A stretch of DNA of 64,000 nucleotides from contig CP126123.1 of the NCBI GenBank assembly GCA_030123605.1, positions 2,646,001-2,710,000 of the forward strand, read 5' to 3'. Within the stretch, counting starts at the first letter, position 1, and each line of letters starts with the position of its first letter. The stretch comes from Nitrospira sp. (GTDB lineage: Bacteria; Nitrospirota; Nitrospiria; Nitrospirales; Nitrospiraceae). The notes under the pieces were generated by a model. That model ran no database searches and had not been told where the DNA came from. It was given only the letters and a program-made list of their open reading frames with translations. Both the position numbers and the translations under genes were made by a program. Below, piece by piece: positions 1-15,287 of the stretch.

Positions 1-1554
1 ACCATAACGGCGCACCCGCTCCGCCCCAAAGGACGGATCGGCGGCGGAGAGGTCGGCATCCAACCCCTGCAACAGGTTCTCTCCTTCCAACAGATACGCA
101 TGCTTGCTATCGGCGACGAGCAAGGCCTCCACACGGCGCGCGAGAAACGTCTTCCCTGTCTGAGCCGAACCGGTGAACAGGACGATGGCGGCCCGATGCC
201 CATATTGCGCAGCCCGGTCCTCCGCCCGCACGTCTCCCGTGAGCCAAGCATATTCCCGCTGCCGAGCCTCCTCACGCAATTCTTCCTGCTCATCATGCAC
301 CAATTCGGTAATGATACCGCCCCCGGTAATGTCGTATTCATCGACGAGGACGAACCGCCCCGTCGATTCGAAAGACGACGACAGGTCGAATGCCAAGGGC
401 GTCTTGACCCGCAACGTCAATTCGGCCACTTGGTTTTTCGCTACCGACTGACTTTCCTGCAGCTGGGCGAGGTCCGCCGTATCGATGATGCGATGAATGG
501 CCGCCACTTCGCAGGCCACTTCCCGCGTGGCGAGCCGCAAAAAGTATTTCCGGCCCTTCTCGAGCGGCCGCTTTCCCAACCAAAACAGGTTGACCCGCAC
601 CGCCGTCGAGACGAGCGGTATCGAATCACGGTGCGATGCAATTTCCCCACGTTCCACGAAGATCTGTTCGTCGAGTGTGATCCCGACCGATTGCCCGGCC
701 TGCGCCTCGCTCGACGGCGGATCGACATTGAACCCTTCGATCGATTGCACCACCCCTGTTTTGTTCGAGGGCGAAAACACCAATTGATCGCCGACTTTCA
801 GGCGACCGGCCGTGATGCGACCGGCTAGAATCCGTCGTGCGTCGAACTTATAAACGTCCTGCAATGGAAACCGCAGAGGCTGCTCTGCCCTAGCCTGCTC
901 TTTCCTGAACAGAGACAACGTCTCCAGCACGGTGGGGCCTCGATACCAGCCCATGCGGTCACTGCGCATCGCAATATTGTCGCCCAATTTGGCACTGACC
1001 GGAATCATTTGTTGCGGAACCGCTCTGAATTGGCCGAGAAACTCCCGGTACTCCTTTTCGATCCCCTCGAACACGTCCTGGCGATAGCCGACCAGGTCCA
1101 TCTTGTTCACGACGACGGCAAACTGCGTCACGCCCAGCAGCGACAGCAAATACCCATGCTTCTTCGATTGTTCGCGCACGCCCTCCAGCGCATCGATCAA
1201 CAACAGCGCGGCCTCCGCCCGAGCGGCGCCGGAGATCATGTTCTTCAAAAACTCCTTGTGGCCCGGCGCATCGATGATGATGTATTGCCGCCCATTCCAG
1301 ATGAAAAACGTGCGCGCCGTGTCGATCGTGATGCCCTGCTCCTGCTCCTCCAAAAACGCATCGAACAGGAAGGCGTACTCGAACTCCTTGCCCTGCTGGC
1401 GGCAAATGGCCTGCACCTTCTCCAGCTTGCCCTCGGGCAGAGACCCGGTATCGGCGTAGAGCCTCCCGACCAGCGTGGACTTTCCGTGGTCCACATGCCC
1501 TACGATGACGATGTTGAGACTCTCCTGCGGCTTGACCTGTTCATGCTGTGTCAT
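1..1554 (-). CDS. cysN: Sulfate adenylyltransferase subunit 1 with C-terminal APS-kinase-like domain (CysNC), 3' end cut by window
   Basis: This is the GTPase subunit of ATP sulfurylase, which with CysD activates sulfate to adenylyl sulfate (APS) in the cytoplasm. The frame is open from the ATG at 1554 to the window edge (518 codons, no stop). The G-protein motifs are visible: GHVDHGKST near residue 18, DAPGH and NKMD, followed by EF-Tu-like beta-barrel domains. From about residue 450 an APS-kinase-like P-loop domain begins (GSAQTGKT, a valid Walker A), but the usual DGDN stretch reads EGEN and the Arg after it is missing, so kinase activity is uncertain. It is the last visible gene of the operon, 61 bp after cysD. 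The upstream-neighbouring CysH looks like an APS reductase, so a PAPS-forming kinase may not be needed here. Confidence 0.93.
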
Positions 1555-1615: not shown

Positions 1616-2416
1616 TCACATGTAACCCTTCTTGCGCAACATCTCCATGCCTCGCCCCGCGTCCTGCGCCCGGCCGGCCCGTTCCGCAATATTGGTTCCG
1701 CGGAGCTCCTCGATGATCTCATCGACCGTCTTCGCCGTAGACTTGATGGGCATGGTGCAGGGGGCGCAACCCAGGCTGCGGTAACGCGTCCCGTCGCCCC
1801 TGTCGAGATACAGGTCCATGAAGGGAATGTTCTCGTGCTTGATGTACTCCCAAATGTTGATCTCGGTCCAATCCAGGAGCGGATGGATCCGGATATGTGT
1901 GCCGGGCGGAAAGGTCGTCTTGAACTGGTCCCACAACTCGGGCGGCTGATCGCGAAAATCCCAATCACCGTGTTTATCGCGAGGCGAAAAGTACCGCTCC
2001 TTCGCCCTGGTGCTGTCTTCGTCCGCACGCACCCCGAGGATGATGCCGGTATAGCCCTTTTCCTCGACCAGATTCTTCATGGCTGTCGTCTTCAAGGCCG
2101 TGCAACAGACATCCCGCCCGAGCGTGTGGTTCATGCCGGCAGCCAAGGCTTCCTTGTTTTGCCCCACCACCAGATTCAAGCGCCACTCCCTGGCAATTCG
2201 ATCTCGGTATTCGATCATCGCCGGAATCTTGTAGCTCGTATCCACATGCAACAAGGGAAAAGGCACATGGCCGAAGAAGGCCTTGCGGGCCAGCCAGAGC
2301 AGCACCGTCGAATCTTTCCCCATCGACCAGAGCATGGCGAGGTGATTGAAATGTTTGTAGGCTTCGCGAAGGATATAGACGCTTTGGTCTTCGAGCTGAC
2401 GCAAATGTTTCATCAT
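1616..2416 (-). CDS. cysD: Sulfate adenylyltransferase subunit 2
   Basis: CysD is the catalytic PP-loop ATPase subunit of ATP sulfurylase and forms APS from ATP and sulfate together with CysN. The 266-residue protein has the PP-loop SMGKDST at residues 31-37 and the conserved HVDT stretch that follows in this family; its length is a little short of the usual ~300. Translation starts at the first of two adjacent ATG codons (2416), with AAGAG just upstream. It lies 12 bp after the trpD-like gene and 61 bp before cysN, all on the minus strand, so it is co-transcribed. The C-terminal tail ends with the family's [11 protein letters not shown]-like sequence, so it is complete. Confidence 0.95.
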
Positions 2417-2428
2417 TCACTCTTCTGG

Positions 2429-3496
2429 TTACGCGGGAATGCCGACCCTCTGCGCGGCCCCGGCATCCGCCCCTGCAACTGCCGTCAGCTCGGCGAGTTT
2501 GGCATGGGCCTGGCCGGACTCGAGCGTACGTCTCGCGGTTGCGAGACTCCCGGTGATTGAAGGCCCCTTCCCTGCCGCATAGAGCAACATGGCGGTATTG
2601 AGCAGCACCCAATCCCGTTGCCCTCCCTGAACCTCGTTTGCCAACAACCGCTTGATCAAGTCGGCCTCCCGTTCCCGCTGTTCGGCGGGAAACCCGGCCA
2701 TCTCACGGAAGGTCGCCATCGTCAGGCCCGCGTCTTTCGGCTGGAACGTGAAGGGGATGATTCGTTCGTCCTTGAGTTCCAGCAGCCGCGTCACATTGCC
2801 GATCGACAGTTCGGGGTCGCCTTCGACACCGCGGATCACAAGAGCCCGCGGACAACTCAACATGCGTAAGGCCTCGATCGTCTTTTCGAAGTACGGCGGA
2901 TGCGACAGACCGATCACCTGCGAGGCGGCGCGTGCTGGGTTCAACAGCCTCGCCACCGGGTGAAAGAAATTTCGCACGCCCAATTCCTGTCGCATTTCGA
3001 GAAACCGATTGACCGGCGGGTGATAGAGCGCCAGGTCCAGATAGGCGAATCCCTTCTTTTCCAATTCGGCCCCGACCGACTTGGCGGTCTGATCGACGGG
3101 AATGCCCAACTGCTTGAGGACCGACGAGACCCCGCGTCGATCCCGCGGGCCGTCTACTCCATGCAACAACACAACCGCTCCGGCGGCCGCCGCAACAATC
3201 GCTGCGGGAAGGATGGCGTGAAAGGTTTCCCGTTTACCCGCATAGACGGGCACATCGACCACCCCCAATCCGGTACGGACCGGAATCGGTGCGACGTATT
3301 GCCGCGCGGCCGCAGTAAAGGCGGCCAATTCCGTGACCGATTCCGACTTGAATCGCATGGCAATGAGGAATGCGCCGATTTGAGCCTGCGTGGCAGTCCC
3401 TTCGATCATCAGGCGCATCGCCTGCTTGGCTTCTTCCCAGGTGAGGTCCTTGGACGTTTTTTGCCCCTTGGCGACTTTCGCGAGCAGGTGTTGCAT
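2429..3496 (-). CDS. Anthranilate phosphoribosyltransferase-like protein (TrpD2/YbiB-type)
   Basis: This 355-residue protein has the overall glycosyltransferase family 3 architecture of TrpD: an all-helical N-terminal domain (first ~70 residues, with the AQIGAFLIAMR stretch) and an alpha/beta domain. The PRPP-binding GTGGD loop of true TrpD is not there; at the matching place the sequence reads PVYAGKRETFH, and the KHGNRSVSS loop reads LHGVDGPRDRRGVSS. I therefore do not call it tryptophan biosynthesis; it resembles the TrpD2 paralogues, some of which bind nucleic acid. It sits inside the sulfate-assimilation operon (47 bp after cysH, 12 bp before cysD), so a role linked to sulfur or nucleotide metabolism is an inference only. 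Confidence 0.85.
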   Translation of the reverse strand: MQHLLAKVAKGQKTSKDLTWEEAKQAMRLMIEGTATQAQIGAFLIAMRFKSESVTELAAFTAAARQYVAPIPVRTGLGVVDVPVYAGKRETFHAILPAAIVAAAAGAVVLLHGVDGPRDRRGVSSVLKQLGIPVDQTAKSVGAELEKKGFAYLDLALYHPPVNRFLEMRQELGVRNFFHPVARLLNPARAASQVIGLSHPPYFEKTIEALRMLSCPRALVIRGVEGDPELSIGNVTRLLELKDERIIPFTFQPKDAGLTMATFREMAGFPAEQREREADLIKRLLANEVQGGQRDWVLLNTAMLLYAAGKGPSITGSLATARRTLESGQAHAKLAELTAVAGADAGAAQRVGIPA

Positions 3497-3543: not shown

Positions 3544-4278
3544 TTATTTGTGCAGGCCGCACTCGGTCTTGCCGAAATTCTTCCACCGACCGGAACGCGG
3601 ATCATCTCCCGGAAGGACAGGCGCCGTGCAGTGCGTACAGCCGATGCTGGGATAGTTGCGGTCGTGCAAGGCGTTATAGGGCACCCCGTGGAGTTGGAGG
3701 TACATCCAGACCTGCTCATGGCTCCAGCGGGCCAACGGATTCACCTTGACCAGGTTGAATTTATTGTCCCACTCGATCAGGCCGGCGTTGGCCCTAGTCG
3801 GAGCTTGGTCTCTCCTGATGCCGGTAATCCAGGCCGAGTAGTTCGCCAGGACGCGGGTCAGAGGTTCGATTTTCCTCAGTTCACAACACTGATCGGGCTT
3901 GCTCGCCCAAAGTGCCGCTCCGTATTGGGTGGCCTGTTGATCAGGCGTCAACAGTGATTTCATCTGAATCACTTGCGCCGGCTTCAAACCATACTGCGCA
4001 ATAATGCGATCACGCACGTCGATCGTTTCGGAAAACAAAAAGTCTGTATCCAAATAAAAAAGGGGAGCCTCTGGATCGATGCGGTGCATCATGTCCACCA
4101 ACGCCACATCTTCCGCCCCGAAACTGCAGGCGAGCACAATCCGTCCCTTGTAGGTCTTGAGTGCATGCTCCAGCACATCCCACGGCTGTTTGGACTCGAA
4201 CGAATCGCTCAGCGCCTTCAATTCTTCATCCCTCGGACGCGCAGCGGGCGTGATGCTATTGCTCAGCTTACCGTTCAC
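3544..4278 (-). CDS. cysH: Assimilatory adenylyl-sulfate (APS) reductase, [4Fe-4S] type
   Basis: CysH reduces activated sulfate to sulfite. The 244-residue protein carries the CC...CxxC ligands of a [4Fe-4S] cluster (Cys131-Cys132 and Cys214-Cys217), which is the signature of enzymes that use APS rather than PAPS, and the C-terminal catalytic motif ECGLH with Cys240. The start is a GTG at 4278, with an AGGGAGA stretch directly upstream; it follows the sulfite reductase by only 5 bp, which suggests translational coupling. Substrate preference is inferred from the cluster ligands, not shown. It passes sulfite to the gene just upstream in the operon. Confidence 0.95.
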   Translation of the reverse strand: MNGKLSNSITPAARPRDEELKALSDSFESKQPWDVLEHALKTYKGRIVLACSFGAEDVALVDMMHRIDPEAPLFYLDTDFLFSETIDVRDRIIAQYGLKPAQVIQMKSLLTPDQQATQYGAALWASKPDQCCELRKIEPLTRVLANYSAWITGIRRDQAPTRANAGLIEWDNKFNLVKVNPLARWSHEQVWMYLQLHGVPYNALHDRNYPSIGCTHCTAPVLPGDDPRSGRWKNFGKTECGLHK

Positions 4279-4283
4279 TCTCC

Positions 4284-6767
4284 CTACCCCTCGACCTTCT
4301 CAACCAGAATTTTGAAATGTTTCGCTTCCGGCTCCAGCGGCCCCTCATCAAGGATCTTGTGGCCGTCGTTGCGCAGGCTCATCGGCACATTCCGAATGGG
4401 TTCTCCGGCATCGAGCCAGACTTCCAGTCGCTCACCGTTGTCCATCATCTCCAGCTTCAATTTAGTCTTCACGTAATTCATCGGACAGGCCACACCTCGC
4501 AAGTCATAGACAGGAGCTTTGGCTGCCGCGATGGGAACCGGAGACGCAACCTTGGGAGCCGCGGCCGGTACGGCCTCTTCCTTCACCTGCGCCAGTTTCA
4601 GATCCTTGCCCATTTGCTCAGTGGCCGCGCGGCAGGCATCGAGAAACCGTTTGGCAAAGGCCATCTTCTCCGTCGCCGCATCGGCCGTCGCGTCCTTGGA
4701 ACCGAGATCGCCAACTTGCATACCGAGTTTTTTATACGTGGCCGGCACGATGCCTTTGCTCGCCAGACGCAGATCGAACTCTTGGAACGTTTCGGCATCG
4801 GTCGCCGGATCGAGTCCTTCCGTCACCAGCAAGGCCTTGGCAGCCGCCAGCACTGCGCGATAGGATTTATTGACCGACAGGGCAAACTGATGCTTCTCGA
4901 CGAGAAGCTTGGCTTGATACAGCTCCTGATCGGCTTCCAACATGCGGTCGTCGATCATCTCCAACGCACCGCCTGCGCATTCACCGGGGCCCAAATCTTC
5001 CAGCACGAATTCCGCCTCGCCTTCCCAGTCATAGTAATAGGTCGGGTCCTGATCATAGGGCGGTACGATCGTGTAGGGAATGAGTGCGTCCTTGAGGGCA
5101 GCCTTGCCGACCCGCGTGATGAACGCCAGGAGCGTTTCACCTTCCCGTCGATCGCGGCGATAGACATCCACCAGGTGACGAATCGCCGCCGGGACGTTCT
5201 TGGCAGGCAGTTTGACCGTCATCTGACCGATCTTCGGCTGCCCGTCCACATGTCCACCGAGATGCAATTCGTAATGCGGCGCCGTATGGTCGCCGAGTCG
5301 CTTGCCGACCCCGTGCAATCCGATTGTAGCGATATGGTGTTGCGCACAGGAGTTATGGCAGCCGCTGATCTTGACACTTACATCCCGGAGATCCTCCGGG
5401 ACCCGGCCGGCGGGGAACACCTCGGCCAAAGCCCTGGCCATCCCCTTGGATGAGGTGATTCCCAAGCCGCAGGTATCGGTGCCGGGGCAGGCAATGATGT
5501 CTTCCACGAGTTCCGCACCGGGATCACCCAAGCTATGCGACACGAGTTCGCCATAGAAGTCTTCCAGACGTCCTTCGGGAATCCAGCGGATCACCACGTT
5601 CTGATTGATCGTCGTGCGGATGTTGCCGTTGGAATATCGTTCGGCAAGATCGGCCACCGTCCACATTTGGTCACCGGTCAGATCGCCCATCGGCAATTTG
5701 ATCGCCGCCGTGACGAAGCCTGCCTGCCGCTGCGGAACCACGTTGGTCCGCTTCCATGCCTGGAACGCCGAGACCTGGCCGTTGAGGGACACAGCGCCGG
5801 TCCCATTCCCGTTGCCATTGGAGAGAGTCGGCGCTTTCGTCGGCATGATCAACGGCGGCTCGTCAGCATACTCCAATAGTTTGATCGGCTCATGGGTCGG
5901 TACCGCGTATCCCATGGCCGCATAGGCCGCTTCCCAGCGCCGCTTGAACTCCTCGAACCCGAGCTTCTCGATGACGAACTTCATGCGGGCCTTGTTGCGA
6001 TTCTTGCGGTTCCCCAATGTGTCGAACACCTTGATCACGGCTTCGATGGTGGGAAGCAGTTCGTCCATCGGCGTGAATTCTCTCAGCACCTGTGCGATGC
6101 GGGGAGTCGATCCCAACCCGCCGCCCACGACCATGCGGAAGCCGATGGTGCCGTCCGCACGTTTCGCGGCGAGCAGTCCGATGTCGTGGATGGGTGTAAG
6201 GGCGCAATCCTGCCGACACCCCGAGAGGGCGATCTTAAACTTCCTGGGGAGACTCTGGTTGAGCGGGTTACGCAAGAGGTGATAGGCCACTGTCTTCGCG
6301 TAGGGCGTGACATCGAAGACTTCCCCTTGGCAGACGCCTGCCAAGTGACAAGCCGTCACGTTTCGCACGGTATTGGCACAGGCCTCGCGCGTGGTCAGTC
6401 CCACGGAGGCCAGCAGGCGCATCATCTCCGGAACATGTTTGAGTTCGACAAAATGCAATTGAATGTCCTGGCGCGTCGTGACATGACCCACTCCGGTAGC
6501 ATACTGGTCGGCCAGTTCGGCCACTTGACGCAACTGGTTCGCCGTCAGCCCTCCGAACGGGACCTTGATCCGCACCATCTGAACCCCAGCTTGCCGCTGG
6601 CCGTAAATGCCGTATTGCAGGCGGAAGGGCTTGAAGATGTCGGTCGAGAGATCGCCCGCCACGACCCGTTGGGCTTCCGTTTCGAATGTCTCGATTTCTT
6701 CGACTATATGGGTTGGGATGGGCTCTGTCCGGATTGCCGGGCGGAGATCAACAGTGTGAGGACTCAT
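4284..6767 (-). CDS. Siroheme nitrite/sulfite reductase with duplicated [4Fe-4S] motifs and C-terminal TusA-like domain
   Basis: This 827-residue protein is predicted to reduce sulfite to sulfide with siroheme and [4Fe-4S]. It contains two ferredoxin-like/reductase repeats, roughly residues 40-290 and 340-560. Both repeats have the full ligand set C-x5-C and C-x3-C: Cys140/146/184/188 and Cys427/433/470/474. Residues ~565-725 form a helical segment of unknown function. Residues ~752-827 are a TusA-like domain with GVACP (Cys761), a sulfur-carrier fold. Start ATG 6767 has GAGGT seven bases upstream. The operon (next to APS reductase and ATP sulfurylase) argues for sulfite as substrate rather than nitrite. 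It is much longer than the usual ~550-600 residues because of the C-terminal additions. Confidence 0.92.
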   Translation of the reverse strand: MSPHTVDLRPAIRTEPIPTHIVEEIETFETEAQRVVAGDLSTDIFKPFRLQYGIYGQRQAGVQMVRIKVPFGGLTANQLRQVAELADQYATGVGHVTTRQDIQLHFVELKHVPEMMRLLASVGLTTREACANTVRNVTACHLAGVCQGEVFDVTPYAKTVAYHLLRNPLNQSLPRKFKIALSGCRQDCALTPIHDIGLLAAKRADGTIGFRMVVGGGLGSTPRIAQVLREFTPMDELLPTIEAVIKVFDTLGNRKNRNKARMKFVIEKLGFEEFKRRWEAAYAAMGYAVPTHEPIKLLEYADEPPLIMPTKAPTLSNGNGNGTGAVSLNGQVSAFQAWKRTNVVPQRQAGFVTAAIKLPMGDLTGDQMWTVADLAERYSNGNIRTTINQNVVIRWIPEGRLEDFYGELVSHSLGDPGAELVEDIIACPGTDTCGLGITSSKGMARALAEVFPAGRVPEDLRDVSVKISGCHNSCAQHHIATIGLHGVGKRLGDHTAPHYELHLGGHVDGQPKIGQMTVKLPAKNVPAAIRHLVDVYRRDRREGETLLAFITRVGKAALKDALIPYTIVPPYDQDPTYYYDWEGEAEFVLEDLGPGECAGGALEMIDDRMLEADQELYQAKLLVEKHQFALSVNKSYRAVLAAAKALLVTEGLDPATDAETFQEFDLRLASKGIVPATYKKLGMQVGDLGSKDATADAATEKMAFAKRFLDACRAATEQMGKDLKLAQVKEEAVPAAAPKVASPVPIAAAKAPVYDLRGVACPMNYVKTKLKLEMMDNGERLEVWLDAGEPIRNVPMSLRNDGHKILDEGPLEPEAKHFKILVEKVEG

Positions 6768-6812: not shown

Positions 6813-7265
6813 TCAAATGTGATACATCAAGCTGTGTTGTGCTTCGAGCGCTCGTTGGCGCTTAGCCAACTCTTCGACCGTCACTTCCGACAGGACGTTC
6901 AATTCGGCCTGCTTCACGCGATCCCAAATGTGCGCCAGCAACACGTCTCGCTTCGCACCGCGAGTGGCGACGTTTCTTGAACCGGCCGCACCGTTGGTTT
7001 CCATGAGAGGCCCCTCCAGCGCATGAAGAATGTCGGCAACGGAAACCTCCGAGGGCTTCCGACTCAGCACATAGCCGCCCTGAGCTCCCCGCTGGCTGGT
7101 TACCACACCGGCCTTTTTCATGGCGTGGAGAACCTGTTCGAGAAACCTGGCCGGAATCGCCTGGCGTTTGGCAATCGCCTTGGCACAGACCGGCTGTTCG
7201 ACGTCATGCAACGCAAGGTCGACGGCAGCGATAATTCCATAGGTGGCCCTGAGGCTAACCTTCAT
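6813..7265 (-). CDS. Rrf2-family transcriptional regulator, first gene of the sulfate operon
   Basis: This 150-residue protein has the Rrf2 winged helix-turn-helix at the N terminus (begins MKVSLRATYG, with a recognition segment around GAQGGYVLSRKP near residues 60-72). The three cysteines that hold the Fe-S cluster in IscR/NsrR are absent; the corresponding loop (about residues 92-108) has no Cys at all. That makes it more like CymR-type members, which sense sulfur status through partner proteins. It is the promoter-proximal gene of the sulfate operon, 45 bp before the sulfite reductase, so it probably controls its own operon. The exact ligand is unknown. Confidence 0.9.
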   Translation of the reverse strand: MKVSLRATYGIIAAVDLALHDVEQPVCAKAIAKRQAIPARFLEQVLHAMKKAGVVTSQRGAQGGYVLSRKPSEVSVADILHALEGPLMETNGAAGSRNVATRGAKRDVLLAHIWDRVKQAELNVLSEVTVEELAKRQRALEAQHSLMYHI

Positions 7266-11950: not shown

Positions 11951-11989
11951 CGTGGCGGGGCAAGGTTCGATGAGGATCTCCCCGTCACG
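11951..11989. terminator. Hairpin between convergent rplT and pheT
   Basis: Arms CGTGGCGGGG (11951-11960) and CCCCGTCACG (11980-11989) pair over 10 bp with one G-U and a 19-base loop. The right arm covers the pheT stop codon. No T-run follows on either strand, so intrinsic termination is uncertain. Confidence 0.35.
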
Positions 11990-13703
11990 CCTCATCCAAC
12001 AACCGATCGATCTCCAACTCCAACGCCACGACCGGCACCCCGATCTGCCACTGCCCCAGCACTTCGGGATGCACCTCACCCAGTAGTCCGATCACTCGAC
12101 CACCGGAAACGATCTGTCCGGCTCGACCATCGAGAAACGACGGATGGGCCACCGGCTCGAGTGTGAACGGGCGATCCAGGTAATACAACAACAGATCCAG
12201 ACAGGAATGGATTTCCGAAAAATGAGCCTCCGCATGGGCCACAATCGCCCCCAGCACCGTCACCGTCCGAGCCCCGACATCGACCGCCCTGTCTGGGACG
12301 GCGACCTCACCGACCTCGAACATACGGTGCGGATAGAACGCCCGGCTTGAATTCGCTTCTACCTGGAGCAACGACGGCGTGACCCACTGGCGGAGACAGG
12401 AGTAGCTGAGGGACATCACATTGTCCACTTCCACGACCTTTGCCCATTCGGTGCCGTCCAGGCGCATCCTCGTACAAAAGTCCTGATGAGAGCCCATGAT
12501 GTTGGAAATGACCTCTTGGAATTCCATGCCCACCATGAGATGACGAATCCGGTCGGCCATCTGCTCCAATCGAGACAGCCCACCGACCGTAAACTGAGAA
12601 GGCATCACCGGAGCAAAGCGCGCATAGCCCTGGCTGATCGCCACATCCTCCACCACATCGACCGTGTGCAACAGATCGTTCCGATAGGGAGGCAACTGCA
12701 CCGCCACCCTCTGCCCGACCGATTTGACCTCATAGCCGTAAGACATGAGCGCCGTGGTCACTTCTTTGCCGCCCAAGGCCTCTCCCAATGCCGACTCGAT
12801 GGCATCAAGGGGAATCGTCCTAGGCTTCCCAAAATCGACCGGCGTGTTCCAGCGACGTCCTAAGGCGGTTTTTACCGGCGACTGAATTTCCACCGGCGTG
12901 ATCATGGCCCCACGGTCGGCGAGATTGGCGGCAAAAATATTCAACGTCAGTGCGACCATCGAGAGATCGGTTCCCGTCACTTCGACAAATAGCTCATGGT
13001 CCCCGACCTGCACTTCTCCGATTTCCCGGCTGTTGATGATCGGAGGAAACGACAACACCTGACCCCGAGCGTCCCGCAGCACGGGGAGTCGGTCATGGCC
13101 TCCGACGATGCCGCCGTACTCGACGCCTTTGGGATGGACCATGAGAATCTCCCGCAAGGTCATCACTGTCTCCATACCCAGCGGGGTGAACCGCACGTCA
13201 TCCGGCTTCACCAGATCGTACGTAACGGGAAACACGATGGGCGACAAGCGATACAATCCGATGGACACGGACCGCCGCTTGCGTCCGAAAATATCCGCGA
13301 GCTTTTCCTGTGTCTGGATGAGCTGCGTCAGGCCTGTTGCCGTCACGCGATACCCCACCGCCGTACAGGCCGCCACATAGGGACGAATCCTGTCCAACCC
13401 CGGTGCGATAACAAGCTTCCCCGCTACGTGCTTCTGTTTCTTGAAAAAGGGATAGGAAACTGCTGCCCCTTGCTGCTTGATCCTGATCTGTCGCGCGATC
13501 CCCTCGCAGCACCAGAGATCCGGACGGTTGCTGTCCTGCAACTCGATACGCAACTCGCCCGTTTCTGGATTGTGTCCCTTCAGTTCTCCCTTTACCAGCA
13601 TTAACCACTGTTCAAGCTGATCGAGTGGGATTCGAACCGGCTTCCCATCAAGCCCCGCGATCAACGCTTCGAGGTCGTCTCGCTGTAGCGAAATAGTGGG
13701 CAT
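11985..13703 (-). CDS. pheT: Phenylalanine--tRNA ligase beta subunit, archaeal/eukaryotic type
   Basis: This is the large subunit of PheRS. At 572 residues it is much shorter than the ~790-residue bacterial form and lacks the N-terminal tRNA-binding EMAP-like domain and the C-terminal ferredoxin-like anticodon domain. It starts MPTISLQRDDLEALI and has B3/B4-like sequences (e.g. GIVGGHDRLPVL, SREIGEV), the B5 region and a C-terminal catalytic-like module (FQEVISNIM...PHRMFEVGEV). These are the features of archaeal and eukaryotic beta subunits. It lies 12 bp after pheS and converges with rplT. Confidence 0.93.
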   Translation of the reverse strand: MPTISLQRDDLEALIAGLDGKPVRIPLDQLEQWLMLVKGELKGHNPETGELRIELQDSNRPDLWCCEGIARQIRIKQQGAAVSYPFFKKQKHVAGKLVIAPGLDRIRPYVAACTAVGYRVTATGLTQLIQTQEKLADIFGRKRRSVSIGLYRLSPIVFPVTYDLVKPDDVRFTPLGMETVMTLREILMVHPKGVEYGGIVGGHDRLPVLRDARGQVLSFPPIINSREIGEVQVGDHELFVEVTGTDLSMVALTLNIFAANLADRGAMITPVEIQSPVKTALGRRWNTPVDFGKPRTIPLDAIESALGEALGGKEVTTALMSYGYEVKSVGQRVAVQLPPYRNDLLHTVDVVEDVAISQGYARFAPVMPSQFTVGGLSRLEQMADRIRHLMVGMEFQEVISNIMGSHQDFCTRMRLDGTEWAKVVEVDNVMSLSYSCLRQWVTPSLLQVEANSSRAFYPHRMFEVGEVAVPDRAVDVGARTVTVLGAIVAHAEAHFSEIHSCLDLLLYYLDRPFTLEPVAHPSFLDGRAGQIVSGGRVIGLLGEVHPEVLGQWQIGVPVVALELEIDRLLDEA

Positions 13704-13715
13704 CCTATACTCGTC

Positions 13716-15260
13716 CTAAAAACTGCCGCGCATGGTGCGGATGAAATCCAGATCTGCCGAGAACAAATCGCGGATGTCGTGAATACCCAGGGCCACCATC
13801 GCCATGCGATCGAGCCCCAACCCCCAGGCAATGACCGGCACCGAGACTCCGAGCGGGATCGTCACTTCCGGCCGAAACAACCCTGCGCCGCCCAGCTCCA
13901 TCCACCCCAGCTTGGGATGGCGGACGTGCATTTCGACCGAGGGCTCGGTGAAGGGGAAATAGGCGGGGAGAAATTTGACCTCCTTGGCCTGCGCCACTTC
14001 GCGAGCAAACAGGTTCAGCAATCCGAGCAGGGTCCTGAAATTGATGTCCTCTCCCAGCACGATCCCTTCCACCTGAAAAAAGTCGGTGGCATGGGTGGCG
14101 TCCACCTGGTCGTAACGGAAACAGCGGGCGATCGAAAAGTACTTTCCCGGCACTGCAGCGCCGCCGGCCAACGTTCGCGCCGACACTGCCGTCCCTTGAC
14201 TACGCAGGACCAACCGTTTCGCCCGCTCCCCATCGAAGGTATAACCCCACCCGGTCGATCCGGCGCCCGTGCCCTTCTCGTGCACCTGCGCCACCTGCGT
14301 CAAATAGGGCTCGGCGATGGTGCGAGCATGCGTCGGCTCCTTCACGAAGTACACGTCGTGAATGTCGCGGGCCGGATGAAACTGCGGCATGAACAGTGCG
14401 TCCATGTTCCAGAACTCGGTCTCGACGAGCGTGCCACGCATCTCCTGAAACCCCATGCTGACCAGCTTGAACTTTACCAGGTCGAGGAACTCTCGATAGG
14501 GATGCCGTTTCCCGGCCGCGATCCTCGGCGCCCGCAGACTGATCGTATATTTTCGGAACCGCTTGGTCCGCCAGGCGCCTTCCTTCAGCAATTCCGGTGT
14601 CAACTGCGAGACTTCCTCCGTCACGCCGTCGTGAGCCAATTGCTGCGTCACCTCCCGTCCGGCGGAGGTCAGCAAAAACGATCTGGTCACCCGTTCATCG
14701 ACCCGGAACGGTTCTCGCGCATTACCGCGCTTCACCGCATGTTGCTGGAGCACCACCTGAAGAGGCTCCGGGAATGTCTTCAGGTCCCGCTGCCCGCTCC
14801 GTAATTCCTGCAGCAGGGCACGCAGAGATTCGGCCGTGGGACTGTTGCGGCCGGTGCTTTCAATACAACCGCCCTGGACGATGAGGATCGCGCCTTCTTT
14901 CTTGAGGGTTCCGACCGCCTTGCTCACATCCGACGGCTCGAGCTCTTCCTGCGTCTGGATATCCTGAACGGTGAGCCGTTTCCCGGTCTGGCTTGCTTCT
15001 TTGGCTGTCGACAACACGCGCTCGATCGGGGAATACTTCTCAACGTACACTTCGCCGACCGGAGTCAGCGAGGCGATATGCGCGACCGTTTCGGCATGGA
15101 CGCCGATCAAGGACTTGGCCAACAGCCATTCAACCGCCATACTGAGCTGTGACGGTTCCAGCCCGGTCGATTCGGCAAGATGATCCAGCGTGGCAGACGA
15201 GTCGGGCCGTCGCGCCAACGCGAGCAGGACTTTGTTTTCGAGGGGGTGCAGGTTATCCAT
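13716..15260 (-). CDS. pheS: Phenylalanine--tRNA ligase alpha subunit, archaeal/eukaryotic type
   Basis: The catalytic subunit of PheRS. It is about 514 residues, where the bacterial form has ~340, because of an N-terminal region of ~220 residues with winged-helix character (e.g. ESTGLEPSQLSMAVEWLLAK) as in archaeal and eukaryotic alpha subunits. Class II motifs are present: motif 2 around FSIARCFRYDQVDATH and motif 3 AWGLGLDRMAM near the C terminus. ATG 15260 is preferred to an in-frame TTG two codons upstream. The gene follows rpe by 27 bp in a fmt-rsmB-rpe-pheS-pheT run. Confidence 0.93.
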   Translation of the reverse strand: MDNLHPLENKVLLALARRPDSSATLDHLAESTGLEPSQLSMAVEWLLAKSLIGVHAETVAHIASLTPVGEVYVEKYSPIERVLSTAKEASQTGKRLTVQDIQTQEELEPSDVSKAVGTLKKEGAILIVQGGCIESTGRNSPTAESLRALLQELRSGQRDLKTFPEPLQVVLQQHAVKRGNAREPFRVDERVTRSFLLTSAGREVTQQLAHDGVTEEVSQLTPELLKEGAWRTKRFRKYTISLRAPRIAAGKRHPYREFLDLVKFKLVSMGFQEMRGTLVETEFWNMDALFMPQFHPARDIHDVYFVKEPTHARTIAEPYLTQVAQVHEKGTGAGSTGWGYTFDGERAKRLVLRSQGTAVSARTLAGGAAVPGKYFSIARCFRYDQVDATHATDFFQVEGIVLGEDINFRTLLGLLNLFAREVAQAKEVKFLPAYFPFTEPSVEMHVRHPKLGWMELGGAGLFRPEVTIPLGVSVPVIAWGLGLDRMAMVALGIHDIRDLFSADLDFIRTMRGSF

Positions 15261-15287
15261 GAACAAAGGTGTGGTTCGGCGCCTCTT

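Follow-up and report, generated by a model that had tools for sequence, protein, structure and literature searches.

A sulfite reductase-HEPN-TusA fusion in a Nitrospira-like bacterium with two cluster motifs and an invariant tail cysteine

Judged from its sequence, P0001 is a siroheme reductase with two cluster motifs, a terminal cysteine arm, a HEPN domain and a TusA domain, and as such a variant of the NirA type. It is encoded within a window of 64,000 nucleotides (the whole stretch of DNA that was analysed; Table 1). The explanation that best accounts for the evidence together, in which we have slightly more confidence than doubt, is a NirA/SirA-type assimilatory reductase that would carry one siroheme, an extra [4Fe-4S] cluster in its N-half, and a sulfur hand-off through C597 and TusA.

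Table 1. Features of P0001 and of its operon in the window.
Feature	Position	Strand	Remarks
Sulfite reductase-HEPN-TusA fusion (P0001)	4284..6767	-	827 aa ORF
N-half of siroheme reductase core	5931..6605	-	Pfam NIR_SIR_ferr 55-121, NIR_SIR 131-279
First Cys set C140/C146/C184/C188	6204..6350	-	CX5C...CX3C, DsrA-like
C-half of core	5088..5747	-	about residues 341-560
Second (catalytic) Cys set C427/C433/C470/C474	5346..5489	-	C474 is the expected siroheme bridge
Tail motif D580...G595-E596-C597 (GxGEC)	4968..5054	-	conserved; C597 codon 4977-4979
HEPN domain	4608..4967	-	residues 601-720; without conserved RX4-6H
TusA domain	4287..4514	-	residues 752-827; Cys761 in GVACP, codon 4485-4487
Rrf2-family regulator	6813..7265	-	upstream of P0001, conserved neighbour
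CysH, (P)APS reductase	3544..4278	-	ends ...KTECGLHK
TrpD2/YbiB-like glycosyltransferase-family-3 protein	2429..3496	-	conserved in operon
CysD, sulfate adenylyltransferase subunit 2 (PAPS_reduct fold)	1616..2416	-
CysN with C-terminal APS-kinase (CysC) domain	1..1554	-	extends past window edge

Operon context and distribution

The gene order Rrf2 - SiR - cysH - trpD2-like - cysD - cysNC is kept through the Nitrospirales. Only two siroheme reductases were found in this genome, and the second of these adjoins a formate/nitrite transporter and a glutamine synthetase, and is therefore likely to be a nitrite reductase, with P0001 as the sole sulfite reductase candidate. From this conserved operon context and the setting of the paralog, P0001 is therefore the assimilatory sulfite reductase of this Nitrospira-like bacterium. 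The TrpD2/YbiB-like gene, located between cysH and cysD in the Nitrospirales, adjoins the reductase alone in two other loci (L039/L040). Elsewhere in the window (11985-15266, minus strand), PheS/PheT of archaeal/eukaryotic type (TIGR00471 pheT_arch 459 bits, a score above cut-off; PRK04172) adjoin a bacterial thrS-infC pair, an unexpected phenylalanyl-tRNA synthetase for Nitrospirota.

In the Nitrospirota sample, the P0001 family was found throughout the family and the order and in much of the class. Scanned genome contigs yielded relatives from Nitrospinota, Methylomirabilota, Zetaproteobacteria, Acidobacteria, Myxococcota and Gemmatimonadota as well as in Chloroflexi, Omnitrophota, Dadabacteria, Armatimonadetes and Bacteroidota, and a plasmid search provided Thermus and Bacteroidota sequences along with proteobacterial controls. 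Two distinct siroheme reductase genes adjoin each other in Methylomirabilota (L101 and L102). L054-L057 are NirB-like fusions of ~1070 aa, in which a pyridine-nucleotide oxidoreductase precedes a two-repeat reductase whose N-half set is shortened to three Cys.

Domain architecture

Two NIR_SIR and two NIR_SIR_ferr half domains (Pfam PF01077/PF03460) were found above cut-off in P0001, which places it in the siroheme sulfite/nitrite reductase superfamily. The AlphaFold model has a mean pLDDT of 86.8, with low confidence around residues 590-602. A helical block that the first-pass annotation had left unassigned could be assigned: residues 601-720 take a HEPN fold, with fold matches to 2hsb (Z 16.5) and 1wol (Z 14.7) and a borderline match to PF05168 (22.3 bits vs a 22-bit cut-off). 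While the fold is the same as in these two HEPN proteins, the domain of P0001 is without a conserved RX4-6H RNase motif; this pattern is present in only 15 of the 72 HEPN-bearing sequences, and a function of the domain as an RNase was rejected because the motif is not conserved.

The TusA tail, also read from the sequence in the first pass, is real, as PF01206 matches residues 754-824 above cut-off, with Cys761 in the CP motif, and residues 748-826 of the model adopt a TusA fold (Z 12.8 to 8k1r and 12.0 to 3lvj). The motif of E. coli TusA is CPxP. The fold and the CP-motif Cys are common to P0001, TusA and TsuB (YeeD), but P0001 has CPMN and is fused to a sulfite reductase. Of the 81 in-group sequences that are complete and non-redundant, 9 consist of the core alone, 27 add HEPN to it and 45 add both HEPN and TusA. 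In a sister group (L050-L053 and L069), TusA is encoded by its own gene, immediately downstream of the reductase. One relative (L037, 3553-6240, minus strand) carries two tandem C-terminal TusA domains. A literature search, the coverage of which stopped short of subscription papers, found no paper on a combination of sulfite reductase, TusA and HEPN or on a sulfite reductase-TusA domain fusion.

Conservation and loss of the first cysteine set

As had been proposed from the sequence alone, both Cys sets are complete in P0001, with Cys exactly at positions 140, 146, 184 and 188 and at 427, 433, 470 and 474. A profile-profile alignment of the N-half with the C-half (hhalign 99.75 %, E 2.4e-27) pairs C140 with C427, C146 with C433, C184 with C470 and C188 with C474, so the first set stands at true ligand positions. 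Of 93 non-redundant relatives, 64 keep the complete N-half set, far more than chance would give. In these 64 fully ligated sequences the first pair is always CX5C, and the second pair is separated by 3, 4, 2 or 5 residues in 44, 14, 4 and 2 sequences, respectively; the second pair of the C-half is CX3C in all 93. The shortened CX2C form was found in Nitrospinota and a relative (L091, L096, L097, L076), and the CX5C form in Acidobacteria (L120/L128).

Relatives from Bacteroidota, Dadabacteria and Omnitrophota have lost some or all of the N-half set, with four changes within the in-group on the tree, and several relatives without the full set otherwise look intact; the set is therefore not essential in general. 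Homologues of the same neighbourhood that lack one set were named in the first pass as evidence against its reading, and such homologues exist if neighbourhood is taken as domain order, since three Nitrospirota relatives (L034-L036) with the same order including TusA have only C140 and C184 left and have lost C146 and C188; at the sampled loci with an Rrf2-SiR-cysH neighbourhood, in contrast, all eight Cys are kept in every one. The accompanying premise, that single-chain enzymes keep the ligands in the second repeat only, holds for the solved aSiR/NirA structures (PMC10229431) but not for the nitrite-reductase (NirA) paralog (L066, 4674-6281, minus strand), which keeps three of the four N-half Cys with C-x5-C broken and represents an intermediate state. 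With only four changes each on the tree for TusA and for the N-half Cys, there are too few independent pairs for a test of their co-loss.

In the N-half of P0001, R135-(C140)-X5-(C146) and K-F-K...GC-X3-C reproduce the pattern of Nitrospirota DsrA, and retention is therefore favoured over re-invention. This favours a view of the first set as a retained, ancient-looking DsrA-like site, in which we infer the direction of change because parsimony counts leave the root unfixed. The repeated losses and the variable spacing of the second N-half pair, together with the separate TusA gene in the sister group, could also be explained if the N-half Cys were a relic or a redox or zinc site without Fe-S and TusA were co-expressed cargo (a dosage fusion) without direct sulfur transfer. 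This explanation appears unlikely, given that the 64 sequences strictly retain all four Cys as a unit, with the CX5C of the first pair fixed.

One siroheme and an additional cluster

E. coli CysI binds sulfite through R83, R153, K215 and K217, and the siroheme carboxylates through R113, T115, R117, Q121, R214 and neighbouring residues; in known enzymes, the siroheme is bridged by the last Cys of the second pair. In the N-half of P0001, R66, R135, K176 and K178, which we take to be the counterparts of the sulfite-binding (anion-site) residues of CysI, are, together with T97, R99, Q103 and R175, nearly all invariant. Across the 64 fully ligated sequences R66, R99, R135, R175, K176 and K178 are invariant, while their C-half counterparts are variable. 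The C-half carries A355, E422, D462, S464, T386, N388, V392 and R461 at the positions corresponding to these basic and siroheme-binding residues; only T386 and R384 are conserved among the C-half counterparts, and both are common as well in members without N-half Cys. Conservation of siroheme carboxylate and anion ligands in both halves, as in a DsrAB-like enzyme with two sirohemes, was thus not observed. A comparison for a C-half signature enriched in cluster-bearing members gave, as top differential columns, those of the Cys and of residues next to the catalytic cluster, e.g., H478, and no basic pocket.

The presence of sulfite-binding Arg/Lys in the N-half only, the variable spacing of the last pair and the losses in relatives therefore make a second working siroheme unlikely, and these sequence features indicate that P0001 most likely carries one siroheme and an extra [4Fe-4S] cluster without siroheme. 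The first-pass annotation had left the choice between two sirohemes and one structural cluster pair; the residue table, the spacing and the conservation favour the structural cluster and disfavour two sirohemes. Two catalytic sirohemes per chain, for which the eight ligands and nothing else speak, were rejected, as the residue table holds no conserved second set of sulfite-binding Arg/Lys: A355, N388, E422, D462 and S464 stand at the counterparts of R66, R99, R135, K176 and K178, and two catalytic sirohemes are extremely improbable.

A DsrAB-like organization in one chain, in which the N-half cluster would carry a second, non-catalytic (structural) siroheme or sirohydrochlorin, would be in line with an N-half motif that is the same as in DsrA for both Cys pairs and for R135/K176/K178, and DsrA itself keeps an inactive structural siroheme (PMC10229431). 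DsrB, however, supplies conserved basic residues, with R or K at five such positions (R at CysI R85, R113 and R117, K/R at K215 and R at K217). In the C-half of P0001 only R384 is firmly kept, a residue as common in cluster-less members, and the would-be bridging Cys varies in spacing; this organization is thus improbable as well. An N-half cluster without siroheme remains the preferred reading.

The tail cysteine C597 and a possible sulfur hand-off

G595-E596-C597 is invariant in an alignment of 50 sequences, on par with active-site residues, and GEC was found in all 140 in-group sequences that reach this position (131 by strict pattern and 9 by reading of tails and alignment; L105 is cut by its contig). 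The motif is absent from the proteobacterial, Deinococcus and Planctomyces controls and from the NirA/NirB outgroups, and the GxGEC cysteine lies outside any Pfam domain match. In all 11 HEPN-less forms, including WP_015065284 of Thermus oshimai and the L117 protein of 576 aa, the protein stops exactly at Cys+2, so that the GEC Cys is the third-last residue (as in L106, L114, L117, L120, L128, L142 and L178); because HEPN presence requires one change on the tree, these 11 ends do not represent eleven independent events. A role of C597 as an extra ligand tied to the N-half cluster was rejected, since this Cys is also invariant where all four N-half Cys are gone. The GEC tail resembles the ECGLH tail of CysH by analogy only, as no signal of homology was obtained with hhalign.

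In DsrC, the terminal Cys takes sulfur from siroheme. By analogy, C597 and a fused or adjacent TusA suggest an in-cis sulfur hand-off, recalling the role of DsrC in dissimilatory sulfite reduction (PMC10229431). Alternatively, C597 could be a structural or redox-regulatory residue (e.g., a thioredoxin- or ferredoxin-contact Cys or an active-site cap) unrelated to sulfur transfer, as members without TusA have it too and as the tail of the short, HEPN-less form is fairly ordered (pLDDT 82-88 to residue 570 and 67 at the end, i.e., fairly confident until the last six residues). Such a role deserves serious consideration, but we find it less convincing, since the invariance of C597 matches that of catalytic residues and its extreme C-terminal position recalls DsrC.

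In the mechanism that we prefer, with cofactor content, sulfur transfer and the roles of HEPN and C597 as we infer them from the gene, its domains and conserved residues, the operon and the distribution, sulfite would be held by R66, R135, K176 and K178 of the N-half over a siroheme on the C-half cluster (C427/433/470/474), and ferredoxin would supply the electrons, by analogy with NirA. The N-half Cys set would bind a second [4Fe-4S], probably without siroheme, for folding or for electron storage or relay. C597, on the tail directly after the core and followed by HEPN and TusA, would receive the sulfur as a protein-bound (per)sulfide, and C761 of TusA would deliver the sulfur product; either C597 or C761 may be the sulfur acceptor. 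The hand-off of the sulfide product to a persulfide carrier, raised in the first pass, is plausible from the sequence and gains support from the invariance of C597, the separate adjacent TusA gene in the sister group and the sulfate-assimilation operon. Release of free sulfide could still be the rule, because many members are without TusA. A more far-reaching and distinctly speculative version, which we hold to be rather unlikely, is that P0001 never frees sulfide, and that sulfur would move from siroheme to C597, as a tethered DsrC-like arm found clade-wide, and on to the fused TusA, with protein persulfide as the product of sulfate assimilation and with the two-cluster state, as would be expected for the fused ancestor, preserved.

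Evolutionary implications

According to current models, a half-size enzyme was duplicated and fused to give the single-chain sulfite reductases, which then lost the first cluster (PMC10229431). The P0001 family keeps the first cluster motif in the DsrA pattern, and states with 4, 3, 2 and 0 Cys are visible within this one family; a predicted evolutionary intermediate is therefore open to direct study. With its terminal Cys present across the clade and with the fusion to TusA, the family raises the possibility that a protein-bound persulfide is the end product of assimilatory sulfur reduction, just as in the dissimilatory pathway with DsrC. Members of the family serve sulfur assimilation in nitrite oxidizers (Nitrospira, Nitrospina) and in named bacteria that can be cultured, e.g., Thermus oshimai and Sphingobacterium.

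Comparison with known systems

P0001 scores below the curated cut-offs of four NCBIfam families, with 286/523 bits for NirA (NF007126), 136/757 for CysI (TIGR02041), 122/732 for sir (TIGR02042) and 172/235 for CobG (TIGR02435), and the relatives L117, L178, L140 and L136 are also below every equivalog cut-off of the families compared. Scores against the DsrAB models TIGR02064/02066 (42/393 and 82/342 bits) are likewise below cut-off, and P0001 differs from DsrAB in being a single ORF with CX5C in its catalytic half, where DsrB has the Dsr motif CXnCCX3C (PMC10229431). P0001 and DsrAB have in common the match of DsrA to the N-half at both Cys pairs and the concept that a Cys carrier takes over the sulfur, but P0001 is one chain without the inserted ferredoxin domain, and its C-half is without the basic residues of DsrB. 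The half-size module of Fsr (7np8, 7npa) resembles each half of P0001 (Z 22); Fsr, however, is a homodimer with an F420 module and one siroheme per chain.

The best match of the P0001 model is the ferredoxin-type NirA of M. tuberculosis (1zj8; Z 40, 477 residues aligned, 29 % identity). Y55 and C130 of P0001 align with the LYTQR and EACGD segments of this enzyme, the crosslink residues of which are presumably Tyr69/Cys161; the nitrite-reductase paralog of this genome has no Cys at the C130 position. A Cys-Tyr bond in the active site of M. tuberculosis NirA is attributed to Schnell 2005 in PMC8092218. The fold, the anion-site Arg/Lys and the Tyr and Cys at the positions of a predicted crosslink place P0001 with the NirA/SirA type. 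Both enzymes have the anion-site residues, the Tyr/Cys pair and the catalytic CX5C...CX3C in common, whereas the N-half Cys, the GEC tail, HEPN and TusA set P0001 apart from NirA.
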